Both the position numbers and the translations under genes were made by a program. The notes below the pieces were generated by a model. That model did not search any database. It worked only from the letters and a program-made list of their open reading frames with translations, and had not been told where the DNA came from. This document shows, one piece after another, positions 39,175 through 64,000 of a stretch of DNA of 64,000 nt (positions are counted from its first letter, which is position 1; each line of letters opens with the position of its first letter). The DNA comes from Winogradskyella sp. (GTDB taxonomy: Bacteria; Bacteroidota; Bacteroidia; Flavobacteriales; Flavobacteriaceae), in NCBI RefSeq assembly GCF_016744625.1, contig NZ_JADGDZ010000002.1:1-64000 (forward strand). The letters are read 5' to 3'.

Positions 39175-39175
39175 A

Positions 39176-45775: not shown

Positions 45776-45840
45776 AGTTATCTTTTTTTATAAAAATACT
45801 GTTGGTTAACAGCTTGCTATCTATTAATTATGGTTGGTAT

Positions 45841-46407
45841 TTACACAATTCGGTCTAAAGGATTCCTAAAATTTTGCTTGTTGTCTTTGTACTCTGTTAA
45901 GCTCATACCTGTCTCATTTTTAAATTGATTACTTAAATGCGTTAAATTGCTATAATCAAGTAGTTGTGAAATTTCTGTAAAGTTGTTTTCTTGTAATTGT
46001 ATCAGTTCTTTTACTTTTTCTATTTTCAATTTGATAAAGTATTTTTCTATAGTTATACTTTCATTAAATGAAAAAATCTTACTGATTTTTGAGTACTCAA
46101 TATTCATTGTACTTTCTAAATATTTAGAGAGTGTTTTCTCTAATTGTAAAGGTAATTTTTGCAGTAATTTGATGAGTTCAATTTTAGTTTGTTCTACTAA
46201 TTGCTGGTCTTGAGCAAGTAGAATTTCAAAGCCATTGTTTTCTAAGGCATCTTTTATATTTTGAAAATCATCTTTAGATTTCTGTTCATAAATTATAGAG
46301 CCCAATTCGATATGTTTTGACTGAATACCCAATGCATCGACATCTCTCTGGATTGCTTTAATACAGCGATTACAAACCATATTTTTTATGAATAATTTCT
46401 TTTCCAT
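45841..46407 (-). CDS. AraC-type HTH regulator with N-terminal HMA-like domain
   Basis: IKNMVCNRCIKAIQRDV then ISQLLDYSNLTHLSNQFKNETGMSLTEYK. Confidence 0.75.
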   Translation of the reverse strand: MEKKLFIKNMVCNRCIKAIQRDVDALGIQSKHIELGSIIYEQKSKDDFQNIKDALENNGFEILLAQDQQLVEQTKIELIKLLQKLPLQLEKTLSKYLESTMNIEYSKISKIFSFNESITIEKYFIKLKIEKVKELIQLQENNFTEISQLLDYSNLTHLSNQFKNETGMSLTEYKDNKQNFRNPLDRIV

Positions 46408-46410
46408 CGG

Positions 46411-47628: not shown

Positions 47629-50600
47629 TTGTTTGCTCTTTTAAGTTGAAATTCTTTTTTCCAGCTATACAATACTGGTAGTAGAAAATAGGATGTAACA
47701 TCTATAATCATCCCACCAAAAATAGGTATCGCCATAGGTATCATTATATCACTACCTTTTCCAGTAGACGTAAGGACTGGAAGTAAAGCGAGTACGGTTG
47801 TAACGGTTGTCATTAAACAAGGTCTAATACGTTTTCCAGCTGCCTCTAAAGTAGCAAGCCTTATCCCTTTTTTAGTATCTGGATTTTTACTTTCAAAAGA
47901 TTGGTCTAAATAAGTGGCCATTACCACACCATCATCTGTAGCAATACCAAACAGCGCTATAAACCCTACCCATACGGCAACACTTAAATTGATAGTTTTC
48001 ATATTAAAGAGGTCTCGCATATTCTCGCCAAAGAGACTAAAATTGAAAAACCAATCTTGACCATATAACCAGATCATTATAAAGCCACCAGCAAACGCCA
48101 CAGCAATCGCAGTAAAAACCATCAACGACGTGGAAACTGACTTGAACTGGAAATAAAGAATCAAGAAAATTACGAGTAGGCAAAGTGGAACTACAACCGC
48201 TAAGGTTTTTTCTGCTCTTAATTGATTTTCATAGGTTCCCGTAAAGCGATAGCTTATACCTGAAGGAACAACCAATTTTCCCGTATCAATATTTTCCTGA
48301 ATTAATGCCTGTGCATTCTCTACAACATCTACTTCGGCAAAACCATCGAGTTTATCAAATAGTACATAACCAATTAAGAATGTGTCTTCACTTTTAATGA
48401 CTTGCGGTCCTTGTTCGTAACGAATGTCTACTAACTCGCCTAATGGCACAGGATTCCCTTTTTCAACCGGAACATAAATTTTTTTTAAGTCGTCTTCATT
48501 ACCACGTAATTCCCGTGGGTAACGTACACGAATACCATAGCGCTCGCGACCTTCAACAGTTTGTGTAAGTGGCATTCCTCCAACAGCTACTTTAAGAACC
48601 TCCTGCACATCCATTACTGAAATACCGTATCTGGCCAATTGTTCTCGCTTGATATCAATAAGTAAATAAGGTTTCCCAACAATACGGTCTGCAAAAACAG
48701 CTTGTTCTTTTACACCTTCGGCTTGTTTTAAAATACCTTCTAATTGTAAACCGAAATCCTCAATCGTTTTTAAATCAGGACCCTTTACTTTAATTCCCAT
48801 AGGCGCTCGCATTCCCGTCTGTAGCATCACGAGCCTAGTTTCAATAGGCTGTAATTTGGGTGCAGAAGTAACTCCTGGGAATTTGGTCACCTTAACTATT
48901 TCATTCCAAATATCATCTGGGCTATTGATGTCTGGTCGCCAGTTTCTGTAATACTCGCCATCGTTATCTTCAATTAAATCATCCCGGTTTGCAGAAGTCT
49001 GTAGACTTGCTTTATCATAATTTGCATTTTTCTCAACTTCGTTATTTGGATTTACGATGAACTTATTATTTTTGAGGACAAAAAATCCGTCATCATTTAC
49101 CTGATAGCGTTGTCTTTCACCATTCTCGTTACGTATATATTCAGATTTATACTGAATTACATTTTCATACATAGAGAGTGGAGCAGGATCTAAAGCAGAA
49201 TCTGTTCTTCCAGATTTACCTACTACCGTTTCAATTTCTGGAATGCTTGCCACTGCCATATCGAGCTGTTGTAGTACACGTTTATTTTCTTCAACTCCTG
49301 CGTGTGGTAAGGATGTAGGCATTAATAAGAATGAACCCTCATTAAGTGCTGGCATAAATTCTTTACCAGTATTACGCATAATCAAAAACCCAAACGTCAA
49401 TACCGTTGCTGGAATAATTAAAAACAAAAGTTTATTTTCTAATGCCCAGCGTAGTATTCTATCATAATACATTCTGAAAATAGAGAATACACCCAGCAGT
49501 CCGAAACAGATAATAGATACAAATATCAAATTGAGAAAAATGCTACGGTCAAAACCTAGCGGTCTCCAGTATTCGGCAAGAAGTATGACTATCGCAATAC
49601 AGGAAATAATAATATGAATGAGATTTGCTCGTTTTGCTGTAATAATCTCTCTCACACTCAAAATTGCTACGACACCAAAGGCAATTAAAATAAGTCCTAG
49701 CCAGTAGCCGAAAATAATCGCCGTAACGCCTAGAATGATGAGAACACTATTGACAATGTATTTAGTACGTTCTCTAAGAGTATTATTTCTAAAAAGGAAA
49801 GCAGCAACTGGCGGAATTATAAATAGAGCAATAACTAAAGAGGATGCAAGTGCCATCGTCTTTGTAAACGCCAGTGGACGGAATAATTTACCTTCTGCAC
49901 CTATCATTGTAAAAACGGGCAAGAAACTGATAATCGTTGTGAGTACCGCAGTTAAGATTGCGCCAGAAACTTCAGCAGTAGCGTTGTAGATTATTTCGTT
50001 TGTGGTGTATTCTATACCGCTTTCGCGAAAGCGTAACTTCTCATCTTCCAAATGCCGAATCATATTTTCGGCAAGTATGACGCCTACATCCACCATTGTA
50101 CCAATAGCAATAGCAATTCCTGATAGTGCAACAATATTTGCATCTACATTAAAAAGCTTCATCGCGACGAAAACCATCAATACCGCTACAGGTAATAATC
50201 CTGAAATTAGAATGGATGCTCGTAGATTAAATACCATTACGATAATTACTAAAATAGTAATGAGTATTTCAAGAGTAAGCGCTTCGTTAAGTGTATGAAG
50301 TGTTTCCTCAATGAGCTGTGTACGGTCATAGAATGGAACAATAGTTAATTGTGAGGTGCGACCATCTGCTAATATTTTAGTTGGAAGTCCTGATGATAAT
50401 TCGGCAATTTGATCTTTTACATTATTAATGACTTCCATTGGGTTTGCGCCATAGCGAGCTACCACAACACCACCTACAACTTCGGCACCTTCTTTGTCTA
50501 GAATACCACGCCTTGTTGCTGGTCCTAAATGAACATTTGCAACGTCCTTTATACGAATAGAAGTGAAGTTTTCTGAATCTACGACTGCATTTTCTATATC

Positions 50601-51377
50601 TGCTATCGATTTCACATACCCTAAACCACGCACGAGATATTCGGCTTGGTTAATTTCTAAAGTTTGAGCACCGATGTCTTGATTGCTTTCCTTGACAGTT
50701 TTTGCTATCTGGGAGAGACTTATGTTATATTGACGCATTTTTTCTGGGTCAATATCCACTTGGTATTCCTGAACATAGCCGCCGATAGATGCTACTTCTG
50801 AAACGCCGCCTGCAGAAGACAATCCATACTTCACGTAATAATCCTGAATACTACGTAATTCTTGCAAATCCCAACCACCAGTAACATTACCGTCTTGATC
50901 ACGACCTTCGAGTGTGTACCAAAATATTTGTCCCAATCCCGTTGCGTCTGGGCCCAAAGCTGGGTTGACACCTTCGGGCAATAAATTTGCAGGAAGCGAA
51001 TTGAGTTTTTCAAGAATGCGGCTACGTGACCAATAAAACTCTACGTCTTCTTCAAAAATGATATAGATACTGGAAAACCCAAACATAGAAGAACTACGAA
51101 TAGTTTTAACTCCAGGAATACCCAGAAGTGAAGTCGTAAGTGGGTAGGTGATCTGGTCTTCGATATCCTGCGGAGATCGCCCTTGCCATTTTGTAAAAAC
51201 AATTTGTTGATTTTCACCAATGTCTGGAATAGCGTCTACTGCAACTGGATTGGTAGGTAGAAAACCTGTGTCCCAACTAAATGGTGCGTTTATAACTCCC
51301 CAACCTATAAAAAGAGTTAAAAGAAGTACCGCTACAAGTTTATTTTCAATTAGAAATTTAATCGCCTTATTAAGCAT
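47625..51377 (-). CDS. cusA: CusA-type heavy-metal RND transporter (no TolC fusion)
   Basis: VDAIPDIGENQQIVFTKWQGRSPQDIEDQITYPL; GTMVDVGVILAENMI; C-terminus ends after the TM region. Confidence 0.85.
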   Translation of the reverse strand: MLNKAIKFLIENKLVAVLLLTLFIGWGVINAPFSWDTGFLPTNPVAVDAIPDIGENQQIVFTKWQGRSPQDIEDQITYPLTTSLLGIPGVKTIRSSSMFGFSSIYIIFEEDVEFYWSRSRILEKLNSLPANLLPEGVNPALGPDATGLGQIFWYTLEGRDQDGNVTGGWDLQELRSIQDYYVKYGLSSAGGVSEVASIGGYVQEYQVDIDPEKMRQYNISLSQIAKTVKESNQDIGAQTLEINQAEYLVRGLGYVKSIADIENAVVDSENFTSIRIKDVANVHLGPATRRGILDKEGAEVVGGVVVARYGANPMEVINNVKDQIAELSSGLPTKILADGRTSQLTIVPFYDRTQLIEETLHTLNEALTLEILITILVIIVMVFNLRASILISGLLPVAVLMVFVAMKLFNVDANIVALSGIAIAIGTMVDVGVILAENMIRHLEDEKLRFRESGIEYTTNEIIYNATAEVSGAILTAVLTTIISFLPVFTMIGAEGKLFRPLAFTKTMALASSLVIALFIIPPVAAFLFRNNTLRERTKYIVNSVLIILGVTAIIFGYWLGLILIAFGVVAILSVREIITAKRANLIHIIISCIAIVILLAEYWRPLGFDRSIFLNLIFVSIICFGLLGVFSIFRMYYDRILRWALENKLLFLIIPATVLTFGFLIMRNTGKEFMPALNEGSFLLMPTSLPHAGVEENKRVLQQLDMAVASIPEIETVVGKSGRTDSALDPAPLSMYENVIQYKSEYIRNENGERQRYQVNDDGFFVLKNNKFIVNPNNEVEKNANYDKASLQTSANRDDLIEDNDGEYYRNWRPDINSPDDIWNEIVKVTKFPGVTSAPKLQPIETRLVMLQTGMRAPMGIKVKGPDLKTIEDFGLQLEGILKQAEGVKEQAVFADRIVGKPYLLIDIKREQLARYGISVMDVQEVLKVAVGGMPLTQTVEGRERYGIRVRYPRELRGNEDDLKKIYVPVEKGNPVPLGELVDIRYEQGPQVIKSEDTFLIGYVLFDKLDGFAEVDVVENAQALIQENIDTGKLVVPSGISYRFTGTYENQLRAEKTLAVVVPLCLLVIFLILYFQFKSVSTSLMVFTAIAVAFAGGFIMIWLYGQDWFFNFSLFGENMRDLFNMKTINLSVAVWVGFIALFGIATDDGVVMATYLDQSFESKNPDTKKGIRLATLEAAGKRIRPCLMTTVTTVLALLPVLTSTGKGSDIMIPMAIPIFGGMIIDVTSYFLLPVLYSWKKEFQLKRANK
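50019..50032. repeat. Palindrome GCTTTCGCGAAAGC (16-mer form; RFRES frame)
   Basis: Exact. Confidence 0.95.
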
Positions 51378-51485
51378 ACGATTTGATTATTAGATAGTTG
51401 AAATTGTGCGAAGTAAAAAATACCGTACACGAGATTCAGCCCACTACAGTATAACTGCTGGGCTTTGTTTCAAAAGTCTAATAGA

Positions 51486-51905
51486 TCAAATAAGAAAAGT
51501 CTGGTGCAACACTTGCACGTCCTGTTTGACAAAGGGCGGCGAGTAAGCAACAAAAGGAACATCTGTAGTTGCGGTTCCTTCAAATAAATTTAAATAAGAA
51601 TATGTAAATGAGGCAACAAAAACTTGTTGCTCGAAACTGAGTGAATCAAAAGAAACCTTTAAATCATCTTGCCCTTGCTTAACCATTTGCTCATCAGAGC
51701 AGCAAGACTTTTTAGATAGTGTTGGTTTCTCACAAGAAACAGTTACTTGTGCTTTCTCCATTCCGCAAGTTTCTACTTGTTGAACAAAAGAAAAATCAAC
51801 AAGTATATCTCCACAATAATGCATATCCACAGTAAACGACATCGTAGTCATAAGAACTACGGCTGCCATAAAAACTGCCATTGATTTGTGGATAAATTGT
51901 TTCAT
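51486..51905 (-). CDS. HYC_CC_PP-like small secreted protein
   Basis: Signal peptide; MHYCGDILVDF...CC...PP pattern; start placed at MKQFIHKS. Confidence 0.65.
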   Translation of the reverse strand: MKQFIHKSMAVFMAAVVLMTTMSFTVDMHYCGDILVDFSFVQQVETCGMEKAQVTVSCEKPTLSKKSCCSDEQMVKQGQDDLKVSFDSLSFEQQVFVASFTYSYLNLFEGTATTDVPFVAYSPPFVKQDVQVLHQTFLI

Positions 51906-52134
51906 TTGATACAAAGTTAAAAATTTATTTAACATTGAAGCTGTCTTTAACTAATTTTTATGCTCTCGATAAAATCATATTTTAGAAAATTAAGAACAAA
52001 TCACAATGAAATTCTTTTAACTTAGTAAGCTCACAAATCATTAAACTTCATTAATTATAGATTTCGATTTAGCAGACATACACGCATCATACTCCAGTCT
52101 TATTCCAAAGAAGATTGACGGTATTACTGTCTAT

Positions 52135-53433
52135 ATGCTTCATAAGAGAATCATTAATAGACAGGTAAATAAGCACTTTACATATAAAGATATTGAAAGA
52201 TGTATTAAAGAAGCGGCACTTATGGAAAGCGGCGTCGTACCTCACACGGATGCTATTGTAGATGGTTTGCTAAAGTACTATTTAGAACACCCAAGAGAAG
52301 AACGCTTTAAGTATGCATTAACCGATTTCGCACTCAAATTCGTCAAACTTTTAGATAATAAACTTTATAGTCCGTACGCAAAATTTCCGTTACGTGATAC
52401 TTTTAAAAAACTTGCAGATTTTAAATCTGCAGAAATTAAAAGTATAGATGATTTTAATAGATGGTATGAATTCAATTTTGAAGGAAACAGCGGTACCGTT
52501 ATTATAGATCATCTAGAGGCATTAAAGGATTACGTAAATAAAGCTATTGATGAGCTTAATGCATACATTAATCAAGATCAAGATTCTGCATTAAAAACAG
52601 CAGAAAACGTTTCTATTTTATTTGAGAAAATCACTGCAAAAAGTGAGGAGATAAAAGACACTCTTTTAATAAGCAACAGTCTTGATGAAGAAATAGAAAA
52701 GGTTGTAAACTACTTTCTAAGGAAGAAAAATAGTCTTCCTGATAATAAAACGCCTAAGCAAAAAGAAGCGCATAAAATTTTAAGAGAGGAATACGATAGA
52801 GCTGTAGAAATTAAGAAAAAGGTAGATGACTTTTTTGTTGAAGTTGAATATAAACTGGGACAGTTATTAGACAGATCTGCCTATGCAAGTACGCAACTTA
52901 TAACGGTACAAGATAATTTTAAAAATAAATCTGCAGTTAGAATTAATATCAAGCGCCTCTTGAAGTTTACATTAGAGCAAGCCAAATTTTCAAAAAAAGA
53001 AGGTTTCTTATTACCTGAACATTTCCCAATTAAGTCTGTAGTATCTGAACGTTTTAAACATATTGGTTTGGTTTATTATGAAGAATTTGGTCTTCAGAAA
53101 AGCTACGTTATTGAGCCTAAGACTAATGAAGCACATCTTAAATCACAAGTTTTGAAACTGGATACAGAATTAACAAGGCAAGAGAATACCGCAAAATGGG
53201 TTAATCTATTCAAAAAGCAGTTGCAAAAAGAAAGAGAGATTGATTTTAGCAATCATTTTTACGATATCGCATTGAAAGAAAATGATACTTTAATTGCACT
53301 TAAAGTAGGGTTTGAACTTGTAGAGTTTGCAAGACATAATAAAGAGTATGAAATTAAAATAGACAGAGAAATACCAGAATCCTCGCTGTCACAAAATATT
53401 GCATTATGGAAAATGAAAATAATAAAGAGATAA
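52135..53433 (+). CDS. jetA: Wadjet/Mks-like non-SMC subunit (JetA/MksF-like)
   Basis: First of four overlapping genes; helical coiled-coil protein; identity mainly from operon context. The frame is open upstream to about 52045 without an ATG. Confidence 0.7.
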   Translation: MLHKRIINRQVNKHFTYKDIERCIKEAALMESGVVPHTDAIVDGLLKYYLEHPREERFKYALTDFALKFVKLLDNKLYSPYAKFPLRDTFKKLADFKSAEIKSIDDFNRWYEFNFEGNSGTVIIDHLEALKDYVNKAIDELNAYINQDQDSALKTAENVSILFEKITAKSEEIKDTLLISNSLDEEIEKVVNYFLRKKNSLPDNKTPKQKEAHKILREEYDRAVEIKKKVDDFFVEVEYKLGQLLDRSAYASTQLITVQDNFKNKSAVRINIKRLLKFTLEQAKFSKKEGFLLPEHFPIKSVVSERFKHIGLVYYEEFGLQKSYVIEPKTNEAHLKSQVLKLDTELTRQENTAKWVNLFKKQLQKEREIDFSNHFYDIALKENDTLIALKVGFELVEFARHNKEYEIKIDREIPESSLSQNIALWKMKIIKR

Positions 53434-54089
53434 ATCAAAATTTTTCGTTTTTTGAAAACGCCGACGTACAAGAATATTTTGCAGATTTGAATATTGAATT
53501 GCTATCTGGTAGGCACATCCAGAAAGATAGATTTTATCTCTACAAACTACTTAAAGATTACTACAACGAACTTTCGTTTTATTATGAAAAATTATATGGT
53601 TTAGAGCTATTAATGGAAACCAGAGAGAACTCTAAATACTACTATGTCGATTATCCCGATACATCTAAAGGAGCGCTTGCAAATCCGTTGCGCCACAAAA
53701 TGTTAACTCAGAAACAAACGCTAATAGGTCTAATATTACTTAATATGTATTATGAGCAGTATTTTGAAAATAAAAAAGAGGTACGCTTTGCGGACATTAA
53801 AAAAGAAATTAAAGAAAGTGAGAACAACATTTTGTACAAAAAATTATTTTTCAACAAAGTGCAAGACGATTATCTTGAGGGCGACTGGTCAATAAAAGTT
53901 ATAAAACCATTTAAAAGTGTGTTAAGAGAATTCAGTAGGCTAGGATGGATTACAAACCTGGCAGTCGAGGATGGCGAAGAAATTCATTTTGTGCTTCGTG
54001 AACCCATTATTAGGTTTCAAAAATTATATGAAAAAGAAATTACAAACTTCACAGAGTTCAGTGAAAAATACCTTAGCCAATTACAATGA
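53406..54089 (+). CDS. jetB: Wadjet/Mks-like subunit (JetB/MksE-like)
   Basis: wHTH-like protein, overlaps both neighbours. Confidence 0.7.
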   Translation: MENENNKEINQNFSFFENADVQEYFADLNIELLSGRHIQKDRFYLYKLLKDYYNELSFYYEKLYGLELLMETRENSKYYYVDYPDTSKGALANPLRHKMLTQKQTLIGLILLNMYYEQYFENKKEVRFADIKKEIKESENNILYKKLFFNKVQDDYLEGDWSIKVIKPFKSVLREFSRLGWITNLAVEDGEEIHFVLREPIIRFQKLYEKEITNFTEFSEKYLSQLQ

Positions 54090-57000
54090 TAGAATATCCT
54101 AGAATTTTTTCGTTATCTACGGTTGGTATTAGAAAGCACTATAATCAAGACTATTTACTGCATCGCGTAAGAACAGATTTTACCGGTAATAATGGTATTG
54201 GTAAATCGCTTATAGCAGACTTATTTCAACTCATATTTATTGGGCAAAAGAGCAAAATAAGTTTTGGTACAGAAAGTTTTAAAAACAAAGATAGGCACAT
54301 ACATACCATACCTTACGATACCGATGATGCCTACGTTTTTATACATATTGAGTTTAAGAAAAATGAATTTATAACCATTGGTACTAACATAGGTAACAAG
54401 CGTAGCAGACCTTTGAAATCTTTTTGGATATTAAACCAAGCCTATAATGATAATGACAAAAAAGACCTTGAAACTTTGTCACTTAACGCCGACCAGCTAT
54501 CATACAGTAAAGATTTTTTAAAAGATGGCCACTTTTTGCCTATAAGCCAACTTGCAAGACACCTTAAAAAGAATAAAAAAGGATTTCTGAAATCGTTTAC
54601 GGATGTAGAAGATAAAAAGGAATACTATGAATTTCTTTATTCAAATGAGCTTTTGCCCATAAATCTTGCGATTGATGAAAATATGGACGCTTTCGCGAAA
54701 GTGATACAATCCTTTTCAAAAGCAAACTCGTTAGATACTGAAAGCGATAAGATTTTAAAAGATTTTCTATTTGAAAATAGTTTGGACACGCTTCAGTCTA
54801 AATACCAATCAAACAAAGAGAAGCTTGAGAAACTAATAAATGAATACAATGAGCTGGATGAGGAAATACATACGATTGAATTAAAACAAGAAGTGTTAGG
54901 CGATCTTAAAGAGTTACAACAGCTTAAAAATGAATCTCAAAAAAAATACCTTACAGCAAAATATCACATCAATTATTTTAGGTATGATAAAGTAGCAACT
55001 AACTGCACAGATACTTCCGATAAGATAAAGAAGGAAACAGATTTTATTGGTAATTTAAAAAAAGGAGTCCCTAAAATTGAAAAACAAATAGGAATTACAA
55101 AGTCGGAATACGACACCTATTCTAATGCTCAAATATTCTTCATAAATTATAAAAATCTGTTCAATACAAGATCGAAAAAATTAGAAAGTCTTAACCAGCT
55201 TCAAAAAATGAAGCTACCTATAATAGATCAAGCAAATTTAGTTGAGATAGATATTGATGAATATGGCGACCAGATAATCATTGAAAAGATAAATAAGCTT
55301 AATTCAGCTTTAGAAAAATACGGCACGATACATAACATAAATGAAAAAACGCTATCGCAACGAAAAATAATAACAGAATACAAAGAGAAAAAAACCTCAG
55401 AGCTTGCTGATTTGGAAGCGCTTAATCGTATTCTTTCTGCTGGAGAAGATGGCTCTTTAATAGCACAAATTATAAAAAATGGTAGAAATCTTACGGTAGA
55501 AGAGGAAACGGTTCTGTTTGGGTTACTCAAAAATGTTCATTTGGAAAAACCAAATAATCCTTCTAAAGGAACACAATTCACTAAAGATAGTTCTCTTTTA
55601 AAATATGATAATATAGAAGACGATAAAGTTAATTCTGGTTATTGGTTCAAGGTTGGTGCTCTGCGAACATTCGTACCTTATTCCAATGAGAAGCAAATAT
55701 TTGCAGATACTGCTAAAATGAAAATTGCCAAAGAAAAAAAGCAGAATGCAATTGATGAGCAAATCAAGTCTATTAAAAATGAACTTGTCGAAATTTTGAA
55801 ATTTGAGAAAGGAGACGTTTATAATCTGTCATCGGTTGATGAGTTAAAAAATCTCAATAAAAATTTTAAAGACTTCTCATTATACGAATCCTCAAAAATC
55901 GCAATGAGTATAGCCGAAAGTCTTTCTACAAAGATCCTTACTGATCAAAAAGAGTTGGCGCAATCATTACAGGAGTTAGAGATGCTTGAAAAGAAAATTC
56001 CAATTAAAATTACTGATGAGAAAATAGACGACCAGTTAACGTCTTATATTCAAAAAATAGCTGCTAAAAAATCCGTTTATAAAGAATTACAAAACAAACT
56101 TAAAAACTCAAAATCTACAATAACCCAAAAGGAAGATAACTTAACTACATTAAACGAACTACTTACAGCAAAAGAAAAGGAAAGAGATGACTTAAAGAAA
56201 CAATACGAAGACGCGTTAACAAATTTTAAAAAGCATTTTAAGCTCTTAAATATTAACGATTTAAAACCTACCAACCTCGACTCGATTGATTTAGATGACC
56301 TTAGTAAACAACATAATAAGCACAAGGATAATTATATAAACGCTTATGGTAAAGCATCGTCTCAGTTTGATACTACAAAGGATGACTTAGAAGTTAAAAA
56401 CCAGATGGATGATCAAAACTATTCATTTGAAGTTTTAGAATTAGTTCTTTTAGGTCCAAAAATTAAGCATACAGAAAATCTGGCACCAGCACTTAAAAAA
56501 TCCAATCAAAACAGAACTAAAGTAATGCAGGCCATCACTCAGGCGATGCTCCGAATATTTAAGTTGACAAAAACAAAATATAAAGACTTTGAAAAAATAG
56601 TTGAAGATTTAAACGACTTCTTTAGTGAGCGACTTATTAGTGATAAATACAACTTCAAGATCGACTTCACACCTAATGAGACTTTTAAAATAGATTGGAT
56701 GAAAAATTTACAATCTTCCACACAAGCTGCATATTCAGAAGGAGAATTGCAATTTTCAGACTCAGTAGAAAGTTTTGTTGAGAAGATTTTCACAGAAGCA
56801 ACATCCTACAACGAAAAGATTAAATTTTCAGATCTATTAGACCCGAAAACGTATTTTGATTTGAGTACGAGGTTGCTTGACAAAGATGGAGTTGACCAAA
56901 CAGGAAGCACAGGACAAAGCTATACTGCGATTGTTTTATTAGGTATTGGGAGACTTTCTATTGTACAAAAGGAAGATAGAAAAGGTGTAAAGTTTTTAAT

Positions 57001-57256
57001 ACTTGAAGAAGTCTCAAATATGGATAAAGGTAACTTTAACACATTTCCTAACATAGCAAAAGAGTTTGGATATCAAATGCTAACGATGACACCAGAACCT
57101 TACGGATCTAATGAAAATGAAGGTTGGTATTTACACCATTTAATAGAGGGCTATGAAGACGTTAATATTAATTATGCGATGCCAAGCAGCTATTTTAAAA
57201 CAAATGAATCTAGAGAAGATTTATCAGATTACTTAAAAAATATAAATAAACAATGA
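54086..57256 (+). CDS. jetC: SMC-like ATPase (JetC/MksB-like)
   Basis: Walker A TGNNGIGKSLIADLFQL; long coiled coil; signature-like GSTGQSYTAIVLLGIGRLS; Walker B-like KFLILEEVSNMD. Confidence 0.85.
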   Translation: MIEYPRIFSLSTVGIRKHYNQDYLLHRVRTDFTGNNGIGKSLIADLFQLIFIGQKSKISFGTESFKNKDRHIHTIPYDTDDAYVFIHIEFKKNEFITIGTNIGNKRSRPLKSFWILNQAYNDNDKKDLETLSLNADQLSYSKDFLKDGHFLPISQLARHLKKNKKGFLKSFTDVEDKKEYYEFLYSNELLPINLAIDENMDAFAKVIQSFSKANSLDTESDKILKDFLFENSLDTLQSKYQSNKEKLEKLINEYNELDEEIHTIELKQEVLGDLKELQQLKNESQKKYLTAKYHINYFRYDKVATNCTDTSDKIKKETDFIGNLKKGVPKIEKQIGITKSEYDTYSNAQIFFINYKNLFNTRSKKLESLNQLQKMKLPIIDQANLVEIDIDEYGDQIIIEKINKLNSALEKYGTIHNINEKTLSQRKIITEYKEKKTSELADLEALNRILSAGEDGSLIAQIIKNGRNLTVEEETVLFGLLKNVHLEKPNNPSKGTQFTKDSSLLKYDNIEDDKVNSGYWFKVGALRTFVPYSNEKQIFADTAKMKIAKEKKQNAIDEQIKSIKNELVEILKFEKGDVYNLSSVDELKNLNKNFKDFSLYESSKIAMSIAESLSTKILTDQKELAQSLQELEMLEKKIPIKITDEKIDDQLTSYIQKIAAKKSVYKELQNKLKNSKSTITQKEDNLTTLNELLTAKEKERDDLKKQYEDALTNFKKHFKLLNINDLKPTNLDSIDLDDLSKQHNKHKDNYINAYGKASSQFDTTKDDLEVKNQMDDQNYSFEVLELVLLGPKIKHTENLAPALKKSNQNRTKVMQAITQAMLRIFKLTKTKYKDFEKIVEDLNDFFSERLISDKYNFKIDFTPNETFKIDWMKNLQSSTQAAYSEGELQFSDSVESFVEKIFTEATSYNEKIKFSDLLDPKTYFDLSTRLLDKDGVDQTGSTGQSYTAIVLLGIGRLSIVQKEDRKGVKFLILEEVSNMDKGNFNTFPNIAKEFGYQMLTMTPEPYGSNENEGWYLHHLIEGYEDVNINYAMPSSYFKTNESREDLSDYLKNINKQ
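54689..54702. repeat. Near-copy GCTTTCGCGAAAGT (AFAKV in the SMC gene)
   Basis: 13/14 match; perfect 12-bp palindromic core. Confidence 0.85.
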
Positions 57257-58194
57257 ATTGGGTCGCACTAAAATCCCTAAATGAACTTTATAGAGATAAA
57301 CAGACAAAGATTAAAGAAACTTTAATCAAGGACTCTTTGTTTCAACATTTACTGAACGATACTCAAGAGATAAAAGAAGGTTATAAAATTTATTATTCTG
57401 ATGATGAAGAATTTTTTGAGATGTATGAAGAAGAGCATTTAGAGAAATTTAATCAATACTATGATTTTTTAGAACATAATAAACTCTTAAAACCCCAAAC
57501 AAGATTTGAAGAGGCAGATATTATTGAGCTAATGGATATGAAGCGTCGTATGGATAATGGTCAGCTATTGCCAATACGAGACCAAATTGTCCAAAATGAA
57601 GATACTGTTAGAAATGTATCTTCTATGTTTTTTAAAAATGAAAAGTATTTGCTCGGAAAGAAATCGCTCATAGATGCCATAAAACAAATACTTCAAATTG
57701 AAGAACTTGCAGATGATAAAGATCAGCAGTATATGTACAAGCTACTATGCGAGAAAGCTAATCTAATAATACTTTGTGAAAATTTAGACTTTTTAAAAAA
57801 GCCATCATTACCACAAAAATATGGGTATGAATTATGGTATGCTGGCGGTAAAAATATTGATAAATTAAAATTCACAGATAACAGAGGTTTACCAATTTAT
57901 TACTCCGCAGACTGGGATTATGATGGCTTACTCATTTTTAATATGATAAAAAAAATTATCCCTAATATTAAGTTGTTATATCCAACCGCAAATCCAAAAA
58001 GCATCGTAAAGTCGGAACATAAAAGCCTATGGGCAGATATGGATAATCCTGAAAATTATTCTAATCTTGACATAAAAGACTTAGATACAAAGCATAAAAC
58101 TATTTTAAAGAAATTAATAGAAAATAACCAGTGGATTACCGAAGAGGATAATAATCTGAAAGAAATGGTATCATTAGTCTTTAATTCCAATTAA
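57253..58194 (+). CDS. jetD: Toprim-type nuclease subunit (JetD/MksG-like)
   Basis: C-terminal Toprim-like ILCENLDFL ... YSADWDYDGLLIFNMIKK; ATGA overlap with the SMC gene. Confidence 0.8.
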   Translation: MNWVALKSLNELYRDKQTKIKETLIKDSLFQHLLNDTQEIKEGYKIYYSDDEEFFEMYEEEHLEKFNQYYDFLEHNKLLKPQTRFEEADIIELMDMKRRMDNGQLLPIRDQIVQNEDTVRNVSSMFFKNEKYLLGKKSLIDAIKQILQIEELADDKDQQYMYKLLCEKANLIILCENLDFLKKPSLPQKYGYELWYAGGKNIDKLKFTDNRGLPIYYSADWDYDGLLIFNMIKKIIPNIKLLYPTANPKSIVKSEHKSLWADMDNPENYSNLDIKDLDTKHKTILKKLIENNQWITEEDNNLKEMVSLVFNSN

Positions 58195-58944: not shown

Positions 58945-59481
58945 CTAAACAAAAGGATTTACCTCCGCAGGTGTCCCACTTGGATAGCCCCAAGCCACAT
59001 ACTGCGACTTCATTTCATCTGTATCAAGATGCACAAAGGTTCTACCTACTCCAATGCGCTTAAAACCAACATCGCGAGCTACAGAGACTAGATGATTACG
59101 GATAAACGTAGTTTGAGCTTTAATATCTACAGCTTTACACGTAGGGATTTTATGAGACGAACTGGAAACGCCGCCTACTTTTTTGTTGTGTGAAGCGCTA
59201 CGAGCTCCAGAGTTAATCCATTGAAAAATAGGGTAGCCAGTTCTGGCTTCCAGTTGCTGAAGCATAAAGATTAATTGCCTATCCATACAACTACCAGAGC
59301 CAGGAAGATCTGGACTGTCAAAAACAGATAAATCGATAGGTCGTTGAGTCATTCGTATCACTCGATTTTTAATTGACTTTGTTTTTGATTTTCTGTAAAT
59401 AACAAAAGCACCTATCAGCAAAATTGACAAGGTGCCTAATCCAACATAGATATGTTGATTGTTACTTTTTACCACAGCCAC
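58945..59481 (-). CDS. Membrane-anchored M15-type peptidase
   Basis: N-terminal TM; SSSHKIPTCKAVDIKA and FVHLDTD zinc-peptidase motifs. Confidence 0.75.
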   Translation of the reverse strand: MAVVKSNNQHIYVGLGTLSILLIGAFVIYRKSKTKSIKNRVIRMTQRPIDLSVFDSPDLPGSGSCMDRQLIFMLQQLEARTGYPIFQWINSGARSASHNKKVGGVSSSSHKIPTCKAVDIKAQTTFIRNHLVSVARDVGFKRIGVGRTFVHLDTDEMKSQYVAWGYPSGTPAEVNPFV

Positions 59482-59608
59482 AACCTTTTGCTGTTTCTTT
59501 ACTTTTCTTGTATCTCAAGAATAAATCTGAACTTATTTTTACAGCGCTTAGCAGTATAAACGCCCCAAAAATATAGTTCAATGTGTTATTTCCTTTGTCC
59601 ACGTTCAT
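59462..59608 (-). CDS. Small single-TM protein with CGCGKK tail
   Basis: Start placed at MNVDKGNNTLNYIFGAF; overlaps both neighbours. Confidence 0.5.
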   Translation of the reverse strand: MNVDKGNNTLNYIFGAFILLSAVKISSDLFLRYKKSKETAKGCGCGKK

Positions 59609-59927
59609 TGTTTTTTTGTTTGTTATATAATTGAATTTCAGCTTCCAATTGCTCGATATATCTTTCAAGATCTGTTATACGATCCCTTTGTTTGGTAATC
59701 GTTTTATTCATCAAGGTATTCTTACTTTCCAGTTGTTTCAACCGTTTCTCCATATTTTCAGACCATAGCTTATAGTTTTCTACCACAAGACTATTGGCCT
59801 GAACATTGAGATTGCGTATTTCGGCGCTTTTGAGACGTCTTTGCGTCCCATATTGCAATAGCACTTCAATGAGTTTCCAAAACCCAGTAGCGCCCAGTAC
59901 AATTGCAAGAATTTTAATTAAGTCCAT
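59586..59927 (-). CDS. TM plus coiled-coil protein
   Basis: N-terminal hydrophobic helix then long coiled coil. Confidence 0.6.
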   Translation of the reverse strand: MDLIKILAIVLGATGFWKLIEVLLQYGTQRRLKSAEIRNLNVQANSLVVENYKLWSENMEKRLKQLESKNTLMNKTITKQRDRITDLERYIEQLEAEIQLYNKQKNNERGQRK

Positions 59928-59942
59928 TAGTTTTTAGATTAC

Positions 59943-59956
59943 GCTTTCGCGAAAGC
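59943..59956. repeat. Palindrome GCTTTCGCGAAAGC (intergenic)
   Basis: Exact; lies between two minus-strand ORFs. Confidence 0.95.
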
Positions 59957-59967
59957 ATCATTAAATT

Positions 59968-60498
59968 TTAAAAGGTGCTTGGTACTCGAGTTCGTCTTAC
60001 TATAACTGGCTCAGACTCTTCGATTTCGTCTTTCTCAATAACATCAGGTGGTAGCACAAATATTCCACCAGAAAACGGTCTAAACTTCAATGGAAGCTCC
60101 GCCACATACGGATTCACATTAAAAATGATTTCATCTTCTGGATCGTTAAAAATACCGCTTACAAATACACGACCGTCGTCATCTATCGCATAGTAAAACG
60201 GTTTTCCTTGACGGCTCAACAGTGTTCCTGTATGCTCGCCTTGTTGATTTTTGTTGATCGGTGCAGGTAGACTTAATTGCCAGCCAGCAATTTCCTTTCT
60301 TCCAGACCTTGAACGCAAACGAATGTCCTTGCCGATTACGATATTCTCGTTGATCACTGCATAAATATTACGACCAGGAGAGTGCAACATATCTGCATTT
60401 AATTGATTAGATGGCACACTCAGCTCTCGCTGAGTGTTTGCTATTAATCCGCCACCTTGTGCTTTTGGCACATTACTTTGATATCCTACTATACTCAT
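59968..60498 (-). CDS. Hypothetical protein, no predicted TM, possible structural protein
   Basis: 176-aa ORF within the collinear block; beta-rich appearance. Confidence 0.5.
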   Translation of the reverse strand: MSIVGYQSNVPKAQGGGLIANTQRELSVPSNQLNADMLHSPGRNIYAVINENIVIGKDIRLRSRSGRKEIAGWQLSLPAPINKNQQGEHTGTLLSRQGKPFYYAIDDDGRVFVSGIFNDPEDEIIFNVNPYVAELPLKFRPFSGGIFVLPPDVIEKDEIEESEPVIVRRTRVPSTF

Positions 60499-60926
60499 TA
60501 TTGTGCTATTATTATTCCGGTTAATACAAGTAAGCCACCGCCAAAAAACCAGCGCTCCAGCTTACCTCTTTTAATTTGTTTGTGCTGTCTCTTAATGGTC
60601 AAGTTCAGCTCTTGAATATGAGATTCATCATTATCCTGAATGACAACAAAATTCTCAACTTTACGCTCCAATTTAAAAATGATCGTATCCTTTTTTTGAG
60701 TGAGATACTGCCATCTATAATTGCGTAATTGCAACGTATCAATAATGCTATCTTGATAAAGACTGAACTCTAATCGCTTTGCCAAATACTTTGATTGTGA
60801 TAAGTCAAAACAGAAATATTTCTTATTGTTTAAGTCTTGTACTATCGGCTGTAAATCCTGAGAAATACTCATACAAGTCCAGAGCAGACATCCTATCAAT
60901 AGTATTAATTTTTTCATCCAATGCAT
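60498..60926 (-). CDS. Signal-anchored coiled-coil protein with C-terminal TM
   Basis: Hydrophobic N-term LILLIGCLLWTC; C-term GGLLVLTGIIIAQ; overlaps the upstream ORF by ~100 bp. Confidence 0.5.
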   Translation of the reverse strand: MHWMKKLILLIGCLLWTCMSISQDLQPIVQDLNNKKYFCFDLSQSKYLAKRLEFSLYQDSIIDTLQLRNYRWQYLTQKKDTIIFKLERKVENFVVIQDNDESHIQELNLTIKRQHKQIKRGKLERWFFGGGLLVLTGIIIAQ

Positions 60927-61173
60927 TTTGTAAATTTTGAATCGTTTTATGGCTTAAAACTATCTTACCAGTCAAGCTATCAGTTTGCTTTTTAAGCTTT
61001 TTTATTTCTTCATCAAGGCTTACGTTTTCAACCGTAAGTAGTTCGTTTTCCTTTTCAAGTTTTAGTATGGTTTCATTGTTCAAAGCTTCCTCTTGCGGAA
61101 TGATGTAAAAGATGAGCAAGACAAGAATCCCTGCAATCCAAAGCACTAATAAAAAAGGTTTCCAAAACTTCAT
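60823..61173 (-). CDS. Spanin-like (i-spanin-type) TM coiled-coil protein
   Basis: N-terminal TM LVLWIAGILVLLIFYII followed by coiled coil. Confidence 0.45.
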   Translation of the reverse strand: MKFWKPFLLVLWIAGILVLLIFYIIPQEEALNNETILKLEKENELLTVENVSLDEEIKKLKKQTDSLTGKIVLSHKTIQNLQNALDEKINTIDRMSALDLYEYFSGFTADSTRLKQ

Positions 61174-61496
61174 TACTCCTTGGGTTTCGTTTGAAATAGT
61201 TTGTTTAAAAATTTCTCTAATAAGAGTTTATGAAACACCAGCGCAAAAGCAAACGATTGTAATAAACATTCAATCATCTTGATTTGATAACCTCGTATGA
61301 AGTACAGAGCGACTCCGTAAATAATGCCGATGATGAGCACACGATAGCGTGTTGCTATTTTAAGCTTAAAAACTTCATAAAAGAAGTTAGTTGAGCGGTA
61401 ATGGTTGAGACCATAAGCAATAACGATGAATGTGAAAATGTAAGCCCAATCCAGGCTATTTAAATAATTGGAGATGTGTGATAAAATTTCGATCAT
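61173..61496 (-). CDS. Holin-like multi-TM protein
   Basis: ~3 hydrophobic segments, charged C-terminus. Confidence 0.4.
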   Translation of the reverse strand: MIEILSHISNYLNSLDWAYIFTFIVIAYGLNHYRSTNFFYEVFKLKIATRYRVLIIGIIYGVALYFIRGYQIKMIECLLQSFAFALVFHKLLLEKFLNKLFQTKPKE

Positions 61497-61741
61497 TTTA
61501 ATTGTGTTTTTAGGGTTTCTTTTATGCTTTTAATATCTGCTTGCAACGCAGCTATTTGATGATTTGGAAATAGATTCTTAGTTAAATGTACTACTACCAC
61601 TATAGTTGCTCCCGAAGCCAATAGAGCAAGCACAATTTTGGTTAATGTTTGATTGGTAAGCGTTACTGTGACTTCGGTCTTGATACCGTCTTTATCTACC
61701 AGACCATCTATTAAATCTTTAATGCTTCGCTTTTCTGCCAT
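61493..61741 (-). CDS. Small single-TM protein
   Basis: TM LTKIVLALLASGATIVVVVHL. Confidence 0.55.
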   Translation of the reverse strand: MAEKRSIKDLIDGLVDKDGIKTEVTVTLTNQTLTKIVLALLASGATIVVVVHLTKNLFPNHQIAALQADIKSIKETLKTQLK

Positions 61742-62222
61742 CCTTGTGTTGCTTTTTTATGTTGCCCATATTGCGTTCGTTGAAGAGCTGTTCTGACACT
61801 TCTTTTACTTTGTAAAGTCTCAAAACACGTTCTTCAGTAATAGCATCAAATTCATCTGTGATTAAGCCTTGTGCAGCACCGTGATTTTTTAAGAGATAGA
61901 CACGTAATTGATAAACAGGTTCTCCTTTGCTTCCTAATTTTAATGGAAAATCATCATTGGGTTTTGGTAGTACTTCGGGCTTTATGACGATTGCTTTCTT
62001 TTCTTTTTCCAAAGAAACTATAGGCTTCATTTCAACCACAGAAACTTCTTTTTTCTGTGGAATAGGTTTCTCAACTTTTACAGATTGAGATTCCTCAACG
62101 ATTGTAAATTCTGCATCTTCAATCGTTTCTTCTTTATCTCTAAAGAGGACATAGCCCAACAATCCTAATCCCAAAAGCCCACCAGCGATAAGCAATCCTT
62201 TTTGCATCGTTTGTTCGCTCAT
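61719..62222 (-). CDS. TM protein with degenerate peptidoglycan-binding-like domain
   Basis: N-term LLIAGGLLGLGLLGYVLF; LKLGSKGEPVYQLRVYLLKN. Confidence 0.5.
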   Translation of the reverse strand: MSEQTMQKGLLIAGGLLGLGLLGYVLFRDKEETIEDAEFTIVEESQSVKVEKPIPQKKEVSVVEMKPIVSLEKEKKAIVIKPEVLPKPNDDFPLKLGSKGEPVYQLRVYLLKNHGAAQGLITDEFDAITEERVLRLYKVKEVSEQLFNERNMGNIKKQHKDGRKAKH

Positions 62223-62725
62223 TATTTCCCGAGACTTGACAGCGCTTTTCGCATTCCTGCGATATCGGCTTGAGTGAATACTGTTTTCTTTAATCGCTTT
62301 TGTGCAGCTCGCGAGGTTTTAGGACCAAATTGCCCATCTACACCATCACGTTTTGGTCCCGTTTTGCCTAAATCTTCTTTGTAGATCTTCAGATAGCGTT
62401 GCAATATTTTCACATCAGGATGACGGCTTCCATATTTGATAGGATAGCCTGTTTTAGTAATAACTGGTTTCGTACTTGAACTAGATGAAGTTGAAGAACT
62501 TGGAATAAACGGTGGTGTTTGATAGCTGGATGAACCACTTGAAACTGTTGTAACTCCAGACGAAGATGCAGTTGCTAATGCAGCTTCTTTTTTCTCCTTT
62601 TTCTTGGTCATAAAATAATACGCGGTAGCAGCTCCCGCGAGTACCACGATAACACCACCTACCACTAAAAGGTCTTTGTTTTTAGTCATAAATGATGGAT
62701 TTGTTGCTGTTGATTTCTGTTTCAT
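62222..62725 (-). CDS. TM protein with PG_binding_1-like domain
   Basis: IKYGSRHPDVKILQRYLKI...DGVDGQFGPKTSRAAQKRLKK. Confidence 0.65.
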   Translation of the reverse strand: MKQKSTATNPSFMTKNKDLLVVGGVIVVLAGAATAYYFMTKKKEKKEAALATASSSGVTTVSSGSSSYQTPPFIPSSSTSSSSSTKPVITKTGYPIKYGSRHPDVKILQRYLKIYKEDLGKTGPKRDGVDGQFGPKTSRAAQKRLKKTVFTQADIAGMRKALSSLGK

Positions 62726-62734
62726 TGGTTCGAT

Positions 62735-63256
62735 TTATGATTGATAATTGGGAAGGCGTTGCACATAGTTTGAGACGTATTCCTTCATTTCGCTTTGGCT
62801 CAAAAAGCTATTCAAGTGTTGCCACATATCCTTGTTGTAGAGCTGATAAAATGCTTTAGAAAGACTGGCGATTTGCGTTTTATCACGCAACTTTTTACCG
62901 AAAACATCTTTGATGGCCTCTTCATCGTCATTAAAAGTGCCTTTCGCATCCTTAATGATTTTAGCCAGTTTCTTAGCCGAAGCATCGTCCAATACTTGAA
63001 TACTTTTTGGTGCCACCCATTTCTGAACATCTGTGAGATAGTTCATATCAAATGGACTGTTCCAATTCGGCTCTTGTTTGGTAGTTCCTACGTTTCCAGT
63101 AGTGACTTGCACACCAGTTCCTATAGATGTGGTTGTCGTGGATTGCAGTGCTTGCTGCTTTATACGCTTTCGCGAAAGCGTAACAAAAACACCTATCCCG
63201 ATAACGCCAAGTCCTGCGCCACCTATCATCCACCATCCTGTTTTTGAGATTTCCAT
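62735..63256 (-). CDS. TM protein with helical-repeat domain (paralogue of 63258-63746)
   Basis: AKGTFNDDEEAIKDVFGKKLRDKTQIASLSKAFYQLYNKD...VQRLPNY. Confidence 0.55.
   Translation of the reverse strand: MEISKTGWWMIGGAGLGVIGIGVFVTLSRKRIKQQALQSTTTTSIGTGVQVTTGNVGTTKQEPNWNSPFDMNYLTDVQKWVAPKSIQVLDDASAKKLAKIIKDAKGTFNDDEEAIKDVFGKKLRDKTQIASLSKAFYQLYNKDMWQHLNSFLSQSEMKEYVSNYVQRLPNYQS
63166..63179. repeat. Palindrome GCTTTCGCGAAAGC (16-mer form; LSRKR frame)
   Basis: Exact. Confidence 0.95.
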
Positions 63257-63257
63257 A

Positions 63258-63746
63258 TTAAGCTGTTCTGTAATTAGGTAGCGCCTTCACGATGTTGAGC
63301 ACTATGGTTATTTCTTCCTTATCAAAGCGGTCTTTGAGCGTGTCAATCAGGTTTTTTGAATAGGTTTCTTGGTAGGCTTTTGCCACTTGAGAGACCTGAA
63401 CTTTATCTTTCATCTTGCGAAAGACTCCGTAGACTTGTTCTTCATCATCGCCTCCTTGATACCAGCTTCCCCAAGCTTTGTGAATCTGGTCTGCATAGCG
63501 AGAAGCGGTACTTGTTTTTAATACCAACACTTCGCGGTTTACTGTTTGTAACACCTTATTCAAAAAATGAATATCAAAAGCATTCTGCGAGGTCAGTCCA
63601 CTTGAAATTGGTTGAATTTGCGCCTGAATAGCAGTCAGTAATTTGCTGGTGCGTACGTCACGACTGCGCTTCCTCAATGAGAAAAACGTTGTCCCTATAA
63701 ATAGAGTTCCTACACTTGCGCCTATGATTTTATACGTCATACTCAT
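63258..63746 (-). CDS. TM protein with helical-repeat domain (paralogue of 62735-63256)
   Basis: GSWYQGGDDEEQVYGVFRKMKDKVQVSQVAKAYQETYSKN...VKALPNY. Confidence 0.55.
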   Translation of the reverse strand: MSMTYKIIGASVGTLFIGTTFFSLRKRSRDVRTSKLLTAIQAQIQPISSGLTSQNAFDIHFLNKVLQTVNREVLVLKTSTASRYADQIHKAWGSWYQGGDDEEQVYGVFRKMKDKVQVSQVAKAYQETYSKNLIDTLKDRFDKEEITIVLNIVKALPNYRTA

Positions 63747-63964
63747 TTGTCCAACAGTTTTAAGCCACGACCTGCAGGTGTGAGCATTGCTAAATCCGAC
63801 ACATCTGCATTCTTTGCTGAATTTTTAAGAAGTACGATAACACCAACCAATACGACTGCCAGTATCACAGGAACACCAATCGATAATACCTTTGTCAAAC
63901 TCTTTCCCAAGCCAAAAACATTTCCACCTATTTCAGATAAATCGGCAATGGTTCTGGTTGCCAT
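63743..63964 (-). CDS. Small single-TM protein
   Basis: TM VLSIGVPVILAVVLVGVIVLL. Confidence 0.55.
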   Translation of the reverse strand: MATRTIADLSEIGGNVFGLGKSLTKVLSIGVPVILAVVLVGVIVLLKNSAKNADVSDLAMLTPAGRGLKLLDK

Positions 63965-64000
63965 ATTAGAAACATCAAGATTGTTTTGATTGAGCCATTT

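Follow-up and report, generated by a model that had tools for sequence, protein, structure and literature searches.

The gene run at the edge of the window

We begin with the question this locus raises: to what kind of element does the dense run of small membrane-protein genes belong that leaves the window (the 64,000-nucleotide stretch of a Winogradskyella sp. contig analysed here) at its right edge? Thirteen minus-strand ORFs, tightly spaced or overlapping, occupy 58,945-64,000, and the last of them extends past the window to 64,189. Of the 12 ORFs scored, 10 have a 19-residue stretch of strong hydrophobicity, in most cases at the N-terminus. A preliminary description had reported about 13 small collinear minus-strand genes, mostly encoding proteins with an N-terminal TM helix, and the ORFs confirm both points. 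The M15 peptidase domain it named lies above the cut-off (PF08291, Table 1), while its peptidoglycan-binding domain is a borderline match (PF01471, 20.8 bits, cut-off 23). Chance can be ruled out as the origin of the run: those ORFs that were tested are conserved between genera, their dN lying far below dS (e.g. 0.02 against 0.3-1.2), and most genes between 61.2 kb and the window edge are retained in 33-37 of 43 comparison loci. The run does not stand alone; it forms the distal portion of a module of 15.5 kb (58.9-74.4 kb).

Table 1. Features of the element from left to right. Those from 58,945 to 74,371 make up the virion-type module; those beyond 64,000 lie off the window.
Feature	Position	Strand	Evidence or remark
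Left end, attL motif GTGAACTCAACGGGACAGAGTTCGAACTTTTTGA	21305..21338	.	similarity to G136 and G454b begins here
Heavy-metal/copper resistance island (P1B ATPases, multicopper oxidase, RND efflux), left cargo	21404..51935	-	Pfam for 3 proteins; collinear in G454b
Wadjet/MksBEF-like four-gene operon (432, 227, 1056, 313 aa), left cargo	52135..58194	+	227-aa protein resembles JetB1, weakly
178-aa membrane-anchored M15 peptidase, TM 11-29; last gene of module	58945..59481	-	PF08291 E=3.6e-12; phrog_894 endolysin 1e-12
68-aa small protein, one hydrophobic segment (judged by eye)	59462..59668	-	ORF list
113-aa protein, TM and coiled coil, holin-accessory-like	59586..59927	-	phrog_2658 'hol-like' 4e-6
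176-aa protein without TM; differs between copies	59968..60498	-	
142-aa candidate outer spanin	60498..60926	-	signal/lipobox-like N-terminus (LIGC), C-terminal hydrophobic segment
116-aa candidate inner spanin, N-terminal TM and coiled coil	60823..61173	-	phrog_739 Rz-like 2e-4
107-aa putative holin, several hydrophobic segments	61173..61496	-	
82-aa single-TM protein	61493..61741	-	present in 33/43 loci
167-aa protein, TM at N-terminus	61719..62222	-	
167-aa protein, N-terminal TM 19-37, C-terminal peptidoglycan-binding-like domain	62222..62725	-	PF01471 4e-4, below cut-off
173-aa protein, N-terminal TM and helical domain	62735..63256	-	present in 37/43 loci
162-aa helical-domain protein	63258..63746	-	pattern related to neighbour's
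148-aa TM protein crossing window edge	63743..64000 (to 64,189)	-	
Amidase	64378-64872	-	
TIGR02594 hydrolase	64883-65320	-	
529-aa propeller protein	65304-66893	-	
SprT-like protease	66886-67644	-	
Basic anchored proteins	67641-70232	-	
303-aa capsid candidate	70260-71171	-	
Putative packaging ATPase	71933-72862	-	
DnaA-C-like protein	73889-74371	-	
Gabija	74565-78313		
Olokun	81853-85124		
DarB-like methylase/helicase pair	86447-93865		
Replication initiator-like gene	96042-97283		
Serine integrase	99027-100676		
tRNA-Arg	100641-100715		3' end at 100,641 is the right end of the element

An integrative element and its cargo

The module lies in a site-specific element of ~79 kb (about 21.3-100.65 kb) with its own serine integrase and a fixed site at a tRNA-Arg gene. 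Among 15 copies compared, from several hosts, the ends fall precisely at tRNA-Arg 3' ends. The left end is located by comparison with the copies G136, G454b, G033 and G069, the last two of which have the same motif, GTGAACTCAACGGGACAGAGTTCGAACTTTTTGA, at their left ends. Searching 48-98 kb for att sites as exact repeats yields none, since the left end, at 21.3 kb, is outside that range, and reconstruction of the empty site from relatives is not clean because other islands occupy this tRNA-Arg there.

The 45 related loci that we find belong without exception to Flavobacteriales or unplaced Bacteroidia, and their elements measure 48-91 kb. Three copies are present in the cultured Kordia algicida OT-1; Aquimarina agarilytica and Dokdonia pacifica are further cultured carriers. 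No related locus is found in IMG/VR, GenBank phages or plasmids, and a 396-genome sample of the phylum gives no distant relative except the genome itself. Across genera the element is 98% identical in one pair and 89% in another, against 81% and 77% for rpoB. By this comparison, horizontal transfer between genera is clear and vertical inheritance of the block is rejected. Whole copies with precise ends have been transferred recently. An integrative conjugative element is not supported, relaxase and type IV secretion genes being absent from the backbone proteins scanned, which are all but a few small ones.

More than half of the element's length is cargo, held in hotspots that here contain Gabija, Olokun, the Wadjet-like operon and the metal-resistance island. 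The defence cargo is exchanged at fixed hotspots, and the copies between them hold Gabija, Olokun, type I restriction, DISARM/BREX-like and Wadjet-like systems. In the Wadjet-like operon only the 227-aa protein matches a known system (JetB1, weakly, 1e-4); architecture suggests a Wadjet/MksBEF-like identity for the other three genes. The DarB-like pair is covered in both genes by phrog_14770, with a weak DarA_C match. It shares an N6 methylase and an SNF2-type helicase with P1 DarB, a component of the phage head that shields DNA in cis (PMC5512222), but differs from it in being two separate adjoining genes with a Strawberry-notch-type helicase and in having no tailed-phage head.

The virion-type module

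The next question is whether the module encodes the parts of a virus particle. It contains an FtsK/HerA-class A32-like ATPase, a 303-aa capsid candidate with a 529-aa homologue, and a lytic set of three enzymes (M15 peptidase, amidase, TIGR02594 hydrolase) and a spanin-like pair, whose two candidate ORFs overlap in different frames. The gene order is maintained in tens of loci, and every module gene tested is under strong purifying selection. In keeping with the preliminary description, PHROGs and Pfam give no credible match to a tail, portal, terminase or HK97-type protein among the proteins scanned; weak PHROG matches, for instance phrog_2666 ('terminase'), are to the P-loop of the ATPase. 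A tailed-phage remnant or GTA is rejected, as the proteins scanned include no hallmark.

Past 64 kb, where that description advised looking for a packaging ATPase and an integrase or replication gene, there are an FtsK/HerA-class ATPase, a serine integrase and a replication-initiator-like gene, the ATPase being soluble, with no TM segment. In Pfam, Zot is the only family above the cut-off for it and Pox_A32 lies just below (22.2 bits for the G000 protein, cut-off 22.8); Zot is matched by 18/18 family members and Pox_A32 by 6/18. The best single match of the ATPase profile is PM2 P9 (86%; an unrelated AAA control reaches 1%), confined to the N-terminal 54 columns. The Walker motifs align with P23-77 ORF13 (6.7%) and HCIV-1 ORF13 (4.7%), both weak matches, and a sequence search of the profile against solved structures gives noise only. 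By sequence, an A32-like packaging ATPase, a trait of the Varidnaviria Bamfordvirae (PM2, PRD1, FLiP), is present. Some Kordia algicida copies of the ATPase gene contain an in-frame stop.

For the capsid the outcome departs from the double jelly roll that had been anticipated. The 303-aa candidate, the most conserved protein of the module and near-invariant (identical across genera), is modelled as a beta sandwich, a single ~150-aa 8-stranded domain with disordered acidic and basic ends. The model, built from 9 similar sequences, is poor (pLDDT 55); it weakly resembles capsid-type sandwiches, with no significant fold match (best E 4e-3 to 6e-3). Its profile has zero matches to PM2 P2, the FLiP capsid proteins, P23-77 VP16 or HCIV-1 VP4, and only noise among solved structures searched by sequence. 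The 529-aa protein is its paralogue with an inserted beta-propeller; from a more diverse sequence set it is also modelled with one 8-stranded beta domain, and the propeller is well modelled. Foldseek returns propellers exclusively for this model. The propeller matches the S-layer-like 1l0q (7e-42). The module has no further long beta-rich protein lacking a propeller.

Comparison with known tailless viruses

A close parallel in architecture is with the Halopanivirales, whose two capsid proteins each have one beta-barrel, with an extra beta domain on top of the taller (PMC6414509). Like these viruses (Singelaviria; P23-77, HCIV-1, SNJ1), some of which are temperate, the element has two single-beta-domain proteins, here candidates, one with an extra domain, together with an FtsK/HerA-class ATPase, many membrane proteins and lytic enzymes. 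It differs in having an inserted propeller as the extra domain, no capsid sequence match, an unconvincing ATPase match, a length of 79-91 kb against 16-31 kb, integration by a serine integrase, and different hosts. Corticoviridae (PM2) and the Vibrio tailless prophages are likewise tailless, membrane-containing and marine, and in the latter, too, defence genes occupy a hotspot (PMC11630473), but their genomes are 12-15 kb or 10 kb and differ in the genes present and their order. Finnlakeviridae (FLiP) are lipid-containing, infect Flavobacteriaceae and have a lytic enzyme in the virion, whereas the FLiP genome is 9.2-kb ssDNA encoding no packaging ATPase (PMC5894146), and neither its capsid nor its other proteins match the element.

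Weighing the alternatives

Because of the downstream ATPase, integrase, replication-initiator-like gene and capsid candidate, and the non-vertical inheritance, a tailless, membrane-protein-rich virion module is the best reading. To this extent the earlier proposal of a tailless membrane-containing phage stands, while its placement with the double-jelly-roll viruses is not supported. A virus of the PM2/FLiP kind would agree with the tailless, membrane-type gene content, the PM2 P9 match and the shared Flavobacteriaceae hosts; we consider it very improbable, as the capsid candidate is modelled with a single 8-stranded domain instead of two, matches neither PM2 P2 nor the FLiP capsids, and sits beside an ATPase that FLiP lacks, in an element eight-fold larger, about 79 kb instead of 9-10 kb. 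Still less credible is a filamentous inovirus-like phage, in which the ATPase would act in morphogenesis as a Zot/pI protein and the coat would consist of the small TM proteins. Zot is indeed the family above the cut-off. Proteins of the pI/Zot type are membrane-anchored, and this reading is rejected because the ATPase has no TM segment; lytic enzymes and spanins, the absence of a secretin and the size of the element also speak against it.

A non-viral envelope or surface machine for adhesion, secretion or cell-wall remodelling, with the propeller as adhesin and the ATPase powering export or assembly, would account for the S-layer-like propeller and the numerous anchored proteins and cell-wall enzymes. 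We regard it as unlikely: the module is invariably within a mobile element that has an integrase and hotspots for cargo, neither an outer-membrane pore nor a secretion component is recognised, the ATPase is soluble and of packaging class, the lysis-type set is complete, and, no conjugation genes being found among the proteins scanned, a transfer route would otherwise be missing. Somewhat less probable is a decayed provirus whose sole remaining role is to give defence genes a place to land, and which forms no particles and moves by natural transformation or phage hitchhiking. Its support comes from the large share of cargo, the in-frame stops in Kordia algicida, the absence from IMG/VR, which is odd for a particle-shedding virus, and a size far above that of known tailless phages. 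The last two points also count against the viral reading itself, as do the low pLDDT and non-significant fold matches of the capsid model, the lack of any sequence match between the candidate and known capsid proteins, the unmatched ATPase among solved structures, and the short N-terminal extent of its PM2 match. Against decay stand the purifying selection on all tested module genes, the identity of the 303-aa protein across genera, the intact gene order, and the fact that whole copies, their ends precise, were transferred recently.

Proposed mechanism and implications

We therefore favour, as the probable reading, a large temperate tailless virus or virus-derived vehicle of marine Flavobacteria, whose virion probably contains a membrane and of whose virion module the in-window run would be the distal end, with structural and lysis genes. 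According to this model, the integrase would excise the element, the 303-aa protein and its propeller paralogue would build a capsid over a membrane rich in small TM proteins, and the A32-like ATPase would package the DNA. The holin-, spanin-, amidase-, TIGR02594- and M15-like proteins would open the host, and the variable propeller would bind the next one, where the DarB-like pair may shield the incoming DNA from restriction. In the provirus state, the cargo would defend the host and detoxify metals.

It is a more tentative proposal, to which we give slightly less than an even chance, that these elements represent an unrecognised high-rank lineage of temperate membrane viruses of marine Flavobacteriales with single-beta-barrel capsids and genomes of ~50-90 kb. 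Their capsids would carry islands of several defence systems and of metal resistance, with the propeller as a receptor-binding tower on one capsid protein, and cargo would change at fixed hotspots up to a packaging limit. If so, the genomes would be several times larger than those of the tailless phages in the literature consulted, in which we find no description of a tailless-virus-like ~80-kb element ferrying anti-phage and metal-resistance genes. A new tailless virus group, missing from the viral collection scanned and with genomes much above those of its known relatives, would account for the movement of defence islands and metal-resistance clusters between marine genera without conjugation genes, in hosts that are ecologically important. 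With Kordia algicida OT-1 as a ready test system, the size ceiling of tailless membrane phages, and the limit that capsid volume sets on cargo, would become directly testable.

The putative virion module

We start with the compact run of small proteins that the preliminary description picked out at the right edge of the window (bases 1-64,000 of the 108,865-bp contig C30, from a draft genome). The run is there as described, with 13 ORFs on the minus strand between 58,945 and the edge of the window, and a strong hydrophobic segment is found in ten of the 12 that were scored. These ORFs are genuine genes: their orthologues in other genera have dN far below dS. Among their products, Pfam and PHROGs recognise an M15 peptidase and, marginally, a peptidoglycan-binding protein; two others come out as an Rz-like spanin and a holin-accessory-like protein. 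The 116-aa ORF (N-terminal TM segment and coiled coil) and the 142-aa ORF (lipobox-like LIGC close to the N-terminus) share 104 nt, read in different frames, and together would resemble an Rz/Rz1 pair.

Past the window edge the run goes on, on the same strand, up to 74,371 (see the table; larger coordinates continue the window numbering). Four consecutive basic or anchored proteins have in common an acidic stretch followed by F-x-G at the border of their basic stretches (QDEDYDDFFG, QDEDYDNFGG, SQENDQFWG, KEDNFCG); speculatively, the element-encoded HExxH protease might cleave at this motif during maturation.

Features of the element and their locations
Feature	Location	Strand or class	Remarks
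Copper/heavy-metal resistance island	window 21404-51935	cargo	P1B ATPases, multicopper oxidase, several CzcA-type RND pumps
Four-gene operon with long coiled-coil ATPase	window 52135-58194	cargo	Wadjet-like by architecture; only JetB1 matched, weakly
Amidase	off window, virion module	minus	phrog_822, 5e-17
TIGR02594 cell-wall hydrolase	off window, virion module	minus	1.5e-28
529-aa beta-propeller protein	off window, virion module	minus	
SprT-like HExxH-motif protein	off window, virion module	minus	motif in alignment A5; Pfam match itself not significant
Series of basic, C-terminally anchored proteins	C30:67641-70232 (L002:12642-15233)	minus	
303-aa protein	off window, virion module	minus	acidic N-terminus, Arg-rich C-terminus
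ATPase	off window, virion module	minus	Walker A GETGVGKT, Walker B VVLDDID
DnaA-C-like protein	off window, virion module	minus	
Gabija	hotspot 74.4-78.3 kb, off window		GajB 4e-99
Olokun, complete pair	C30:81853-85124 (L003:6854-10125), off window		OloA 9e-67, OloB 1e-151
MoxR-like AAA ATPase	rest of backbone		
DUF7192 protein	rest of backbone		
N6 methylase and Strawberry-notch helicase pair	rest of backbone		like P1 DarB; phrog_14770 spans both
Replication-initiator-like protein	rest of backbone		
Regulators	rest of backbone		

The candidate packaging ATPase is without a TM segment and matches Zot above the Pfam cut-off and Pox_A32 just below it; among 18 members of its family, Zot matches all and A32 six. 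The best alignment of the family profile is with P9, the packaging ATPase of PM2 (86%, covering the N-terminal part), against 1% for an unrelated AAA ATPase from the same contig taken as a control.

The slowest-evolving product of the module is the 303-aa protein, which is 61-100% identical within its family (34 sequences) and identical across several genera (dN 0, dS 0.29). Its AlphaFold2 model is poor (pLDDT 55), and what is ordered in it forms a beta domain with eight main strands (87-95, 101-106, 118-124, 139-148, 158-163, 169-174, 204-209, 214-221). Foldseek with this model gives no significant match; the best weak PDB matches are nucleoplasmin cores, phloem lectin and PRD1 P5, as well as birnavirus, circovirus and cowpea mosaic virus capsid domains, and many of the weak matches are jelly rolls or similar sandwiches. 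The 529-aa protein is modelled better (pLDDT 81), with strands at 27-35, 41-45 and 59-69, a propeller at about 74-375, and further strands at 405-414, 422-428, 434-440, 468-474 and 479-488. These non-propeller strands agree with those of the 303-aa model in order and spacing, the C-terminal halves of the two family profiles align (93.8%, E 1.7e-7), and BLAST with the 529-aa protein picks up the 303-aa protein in a few distant loci. The two are therefore likely to be paralogous capsid-type proteins, one of them carrying the propeller as an insertion after its third strand and before the fourth. Of the pair, it is the propeller protein that evolves fast (27-95% identity), as would be expected of a receptor-binding part.

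Ends, size and backbone

When its DNA is compared with that of 14 other copies, the element shows a conserved backbone that spans 58,947 to about 100,690 and is broken up by cargo. On the right, the element stops at the 3' end of a tRNA-Arg gene (acg, tcg or tct isoacceptor, depending on the genome), adjoining a 549-aa serine integrase, and the left end is the 34-bp motif GTGAMCTCRAMGGGACAGAGTTCRAACTTTTTGA, located where similarity begins here (21,305), in G033 (7,859) and G069 (349), and also in the genomes G136 and G454b. A second copy of the motif, which resembles the tRNA-Arg sequence more closely than the 21,305 copy does, lies at window 5290-5323, and the 16-kb stretch after it (5290-21305) carries another RND efflux system; this copy may belong to a tandem or other island, or may form the outer left boundary of a larger composite (95 kb).

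The element is 79.3 kb here, and other copies are 85.3, 90.8, 84.4 and at least 78.0 kb. That the range stays within 78-91 kb despite unrelated cargo could, as a speculation from a sample of five that is too small, reflect a packaging limit. More distant copies look smaller, with a spacing of about 62 kb in Kordia and about 48 kb in the genome G131. Kordia algicida OT-1 (G413:C1) holds three copies, at about 37-66, 100-128 and 815-837 kb (L089, L090, L085). Two of these are nearly identical, with a spacing of about 62 kb, and an in-frame stop occurs in two of the ATPase matches there. A relative at L132 (G004:C1 near 302,500-306,000) carries, at the same tRNA-Arg, an integrase end that is 87% similar, yet lacks an ATPase match. 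Elements with the same integration module but other contents exist.

P1 DarB, which the methylase and helicase pair resembles, is packaged in the phage head and shields DNA in cis (PMC5512222). In Bacteroides phage BS-TP4 (L154:1511-17686), an ORF of ~5,400 aa adjoins a portal gene, and part of it matches the element helicase (29.5% identity over 79% of the helicase length); this ORF is likely a giant polyvalent (DarB-like) protein.

Cargo

Cargo is concentrated at hotspots: to the left of the virion module, next to the ATPase gene (where the ATPase-to-capsid-gene gap ranges from 0.4 to 9.3 kb), at 74.4-78.3 kb and at 81.4-85.3 kb. The metal-resistance island is collinear in G454b and adjoins the module in G136. 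The Wadjet-like operon is nearly invisible to PADLOC and Pfam and could be either a divergent form of Wadjet or a new kind of defence system. End to end with it, on the opposite strand, is a 177-aa protein (58191-58724) with no family match, which recurs only in G136. The Gabija site holds insertions in other copies, of 26.7 kb in G033 and 32 kb in G069. The Olokun pair is at the same place in G033 and G136, and other copies have other genes there, such as the type I restriction system of G347. Run on 92 cargo proteins, PADLOC reports GajB, DrmD, type I restriction, BREX helicase and Mads families.

Relation to known viruses

The integrase, the replication initiator, the lytic set, the packaging ATPase, the structural pair (a conserved beta-domain protein and its paralogue with the propeller) and a dozen small membrane proteins add up to what would be a tailless, internal-membrane virion. 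Membership of the PM2/FLiP group, which the preliminary description suggested, is rejected. By analogy, the working plan would be most like that of Singelaviria, which have two single-jelly-roll capsid proteins with an extra beta domain on the taller (PMC6414509), the propeller being the extra domain here. We do not file the element in Singelaviria, because the sequence tests failed and the jelly roll is weakly supported. Tailless Vibrio prophages have defence hotspots too, but are 12-15 kb (PMC11630473), and sphaerolipoviruses reach about 31 kb (PMC12643093), in contrast to 79.3 kb here. No account of the element was found in the literature searched, a scope outside which most subscription papers and most preprints fall.

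Distribution and horizontal movement

The ATPase is present in 10 of 400 sampled Flavobacteriaceae species, the present one counted. A capsid-profile scan of the genome collection gives 45 loci, all of which belong to Flavobacteriales or to unplaced Bacteroidia bins, with carriers in Aquimarina, Kordia, Nonlabens, Dokdonia, Algibacter, Olleya, Flavivirga, Patiriisocius and a Vicingaceae bin; a 396-genome sample of the phylum adds no further loci, and no relatives are found in IMG/VR, GenBank phages or plasmids. Over 21.5 kb, the element shares 98% identity with a copy from another genus, where rpoB is 81% identical, and it is 89% identical to a second copy, whose genome has an rpoB of 77% identity. 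Identity of the element so far above that of rpoB argues against vertical inheritance, which the preliminary description had listed as part of what would refute its own proposal.
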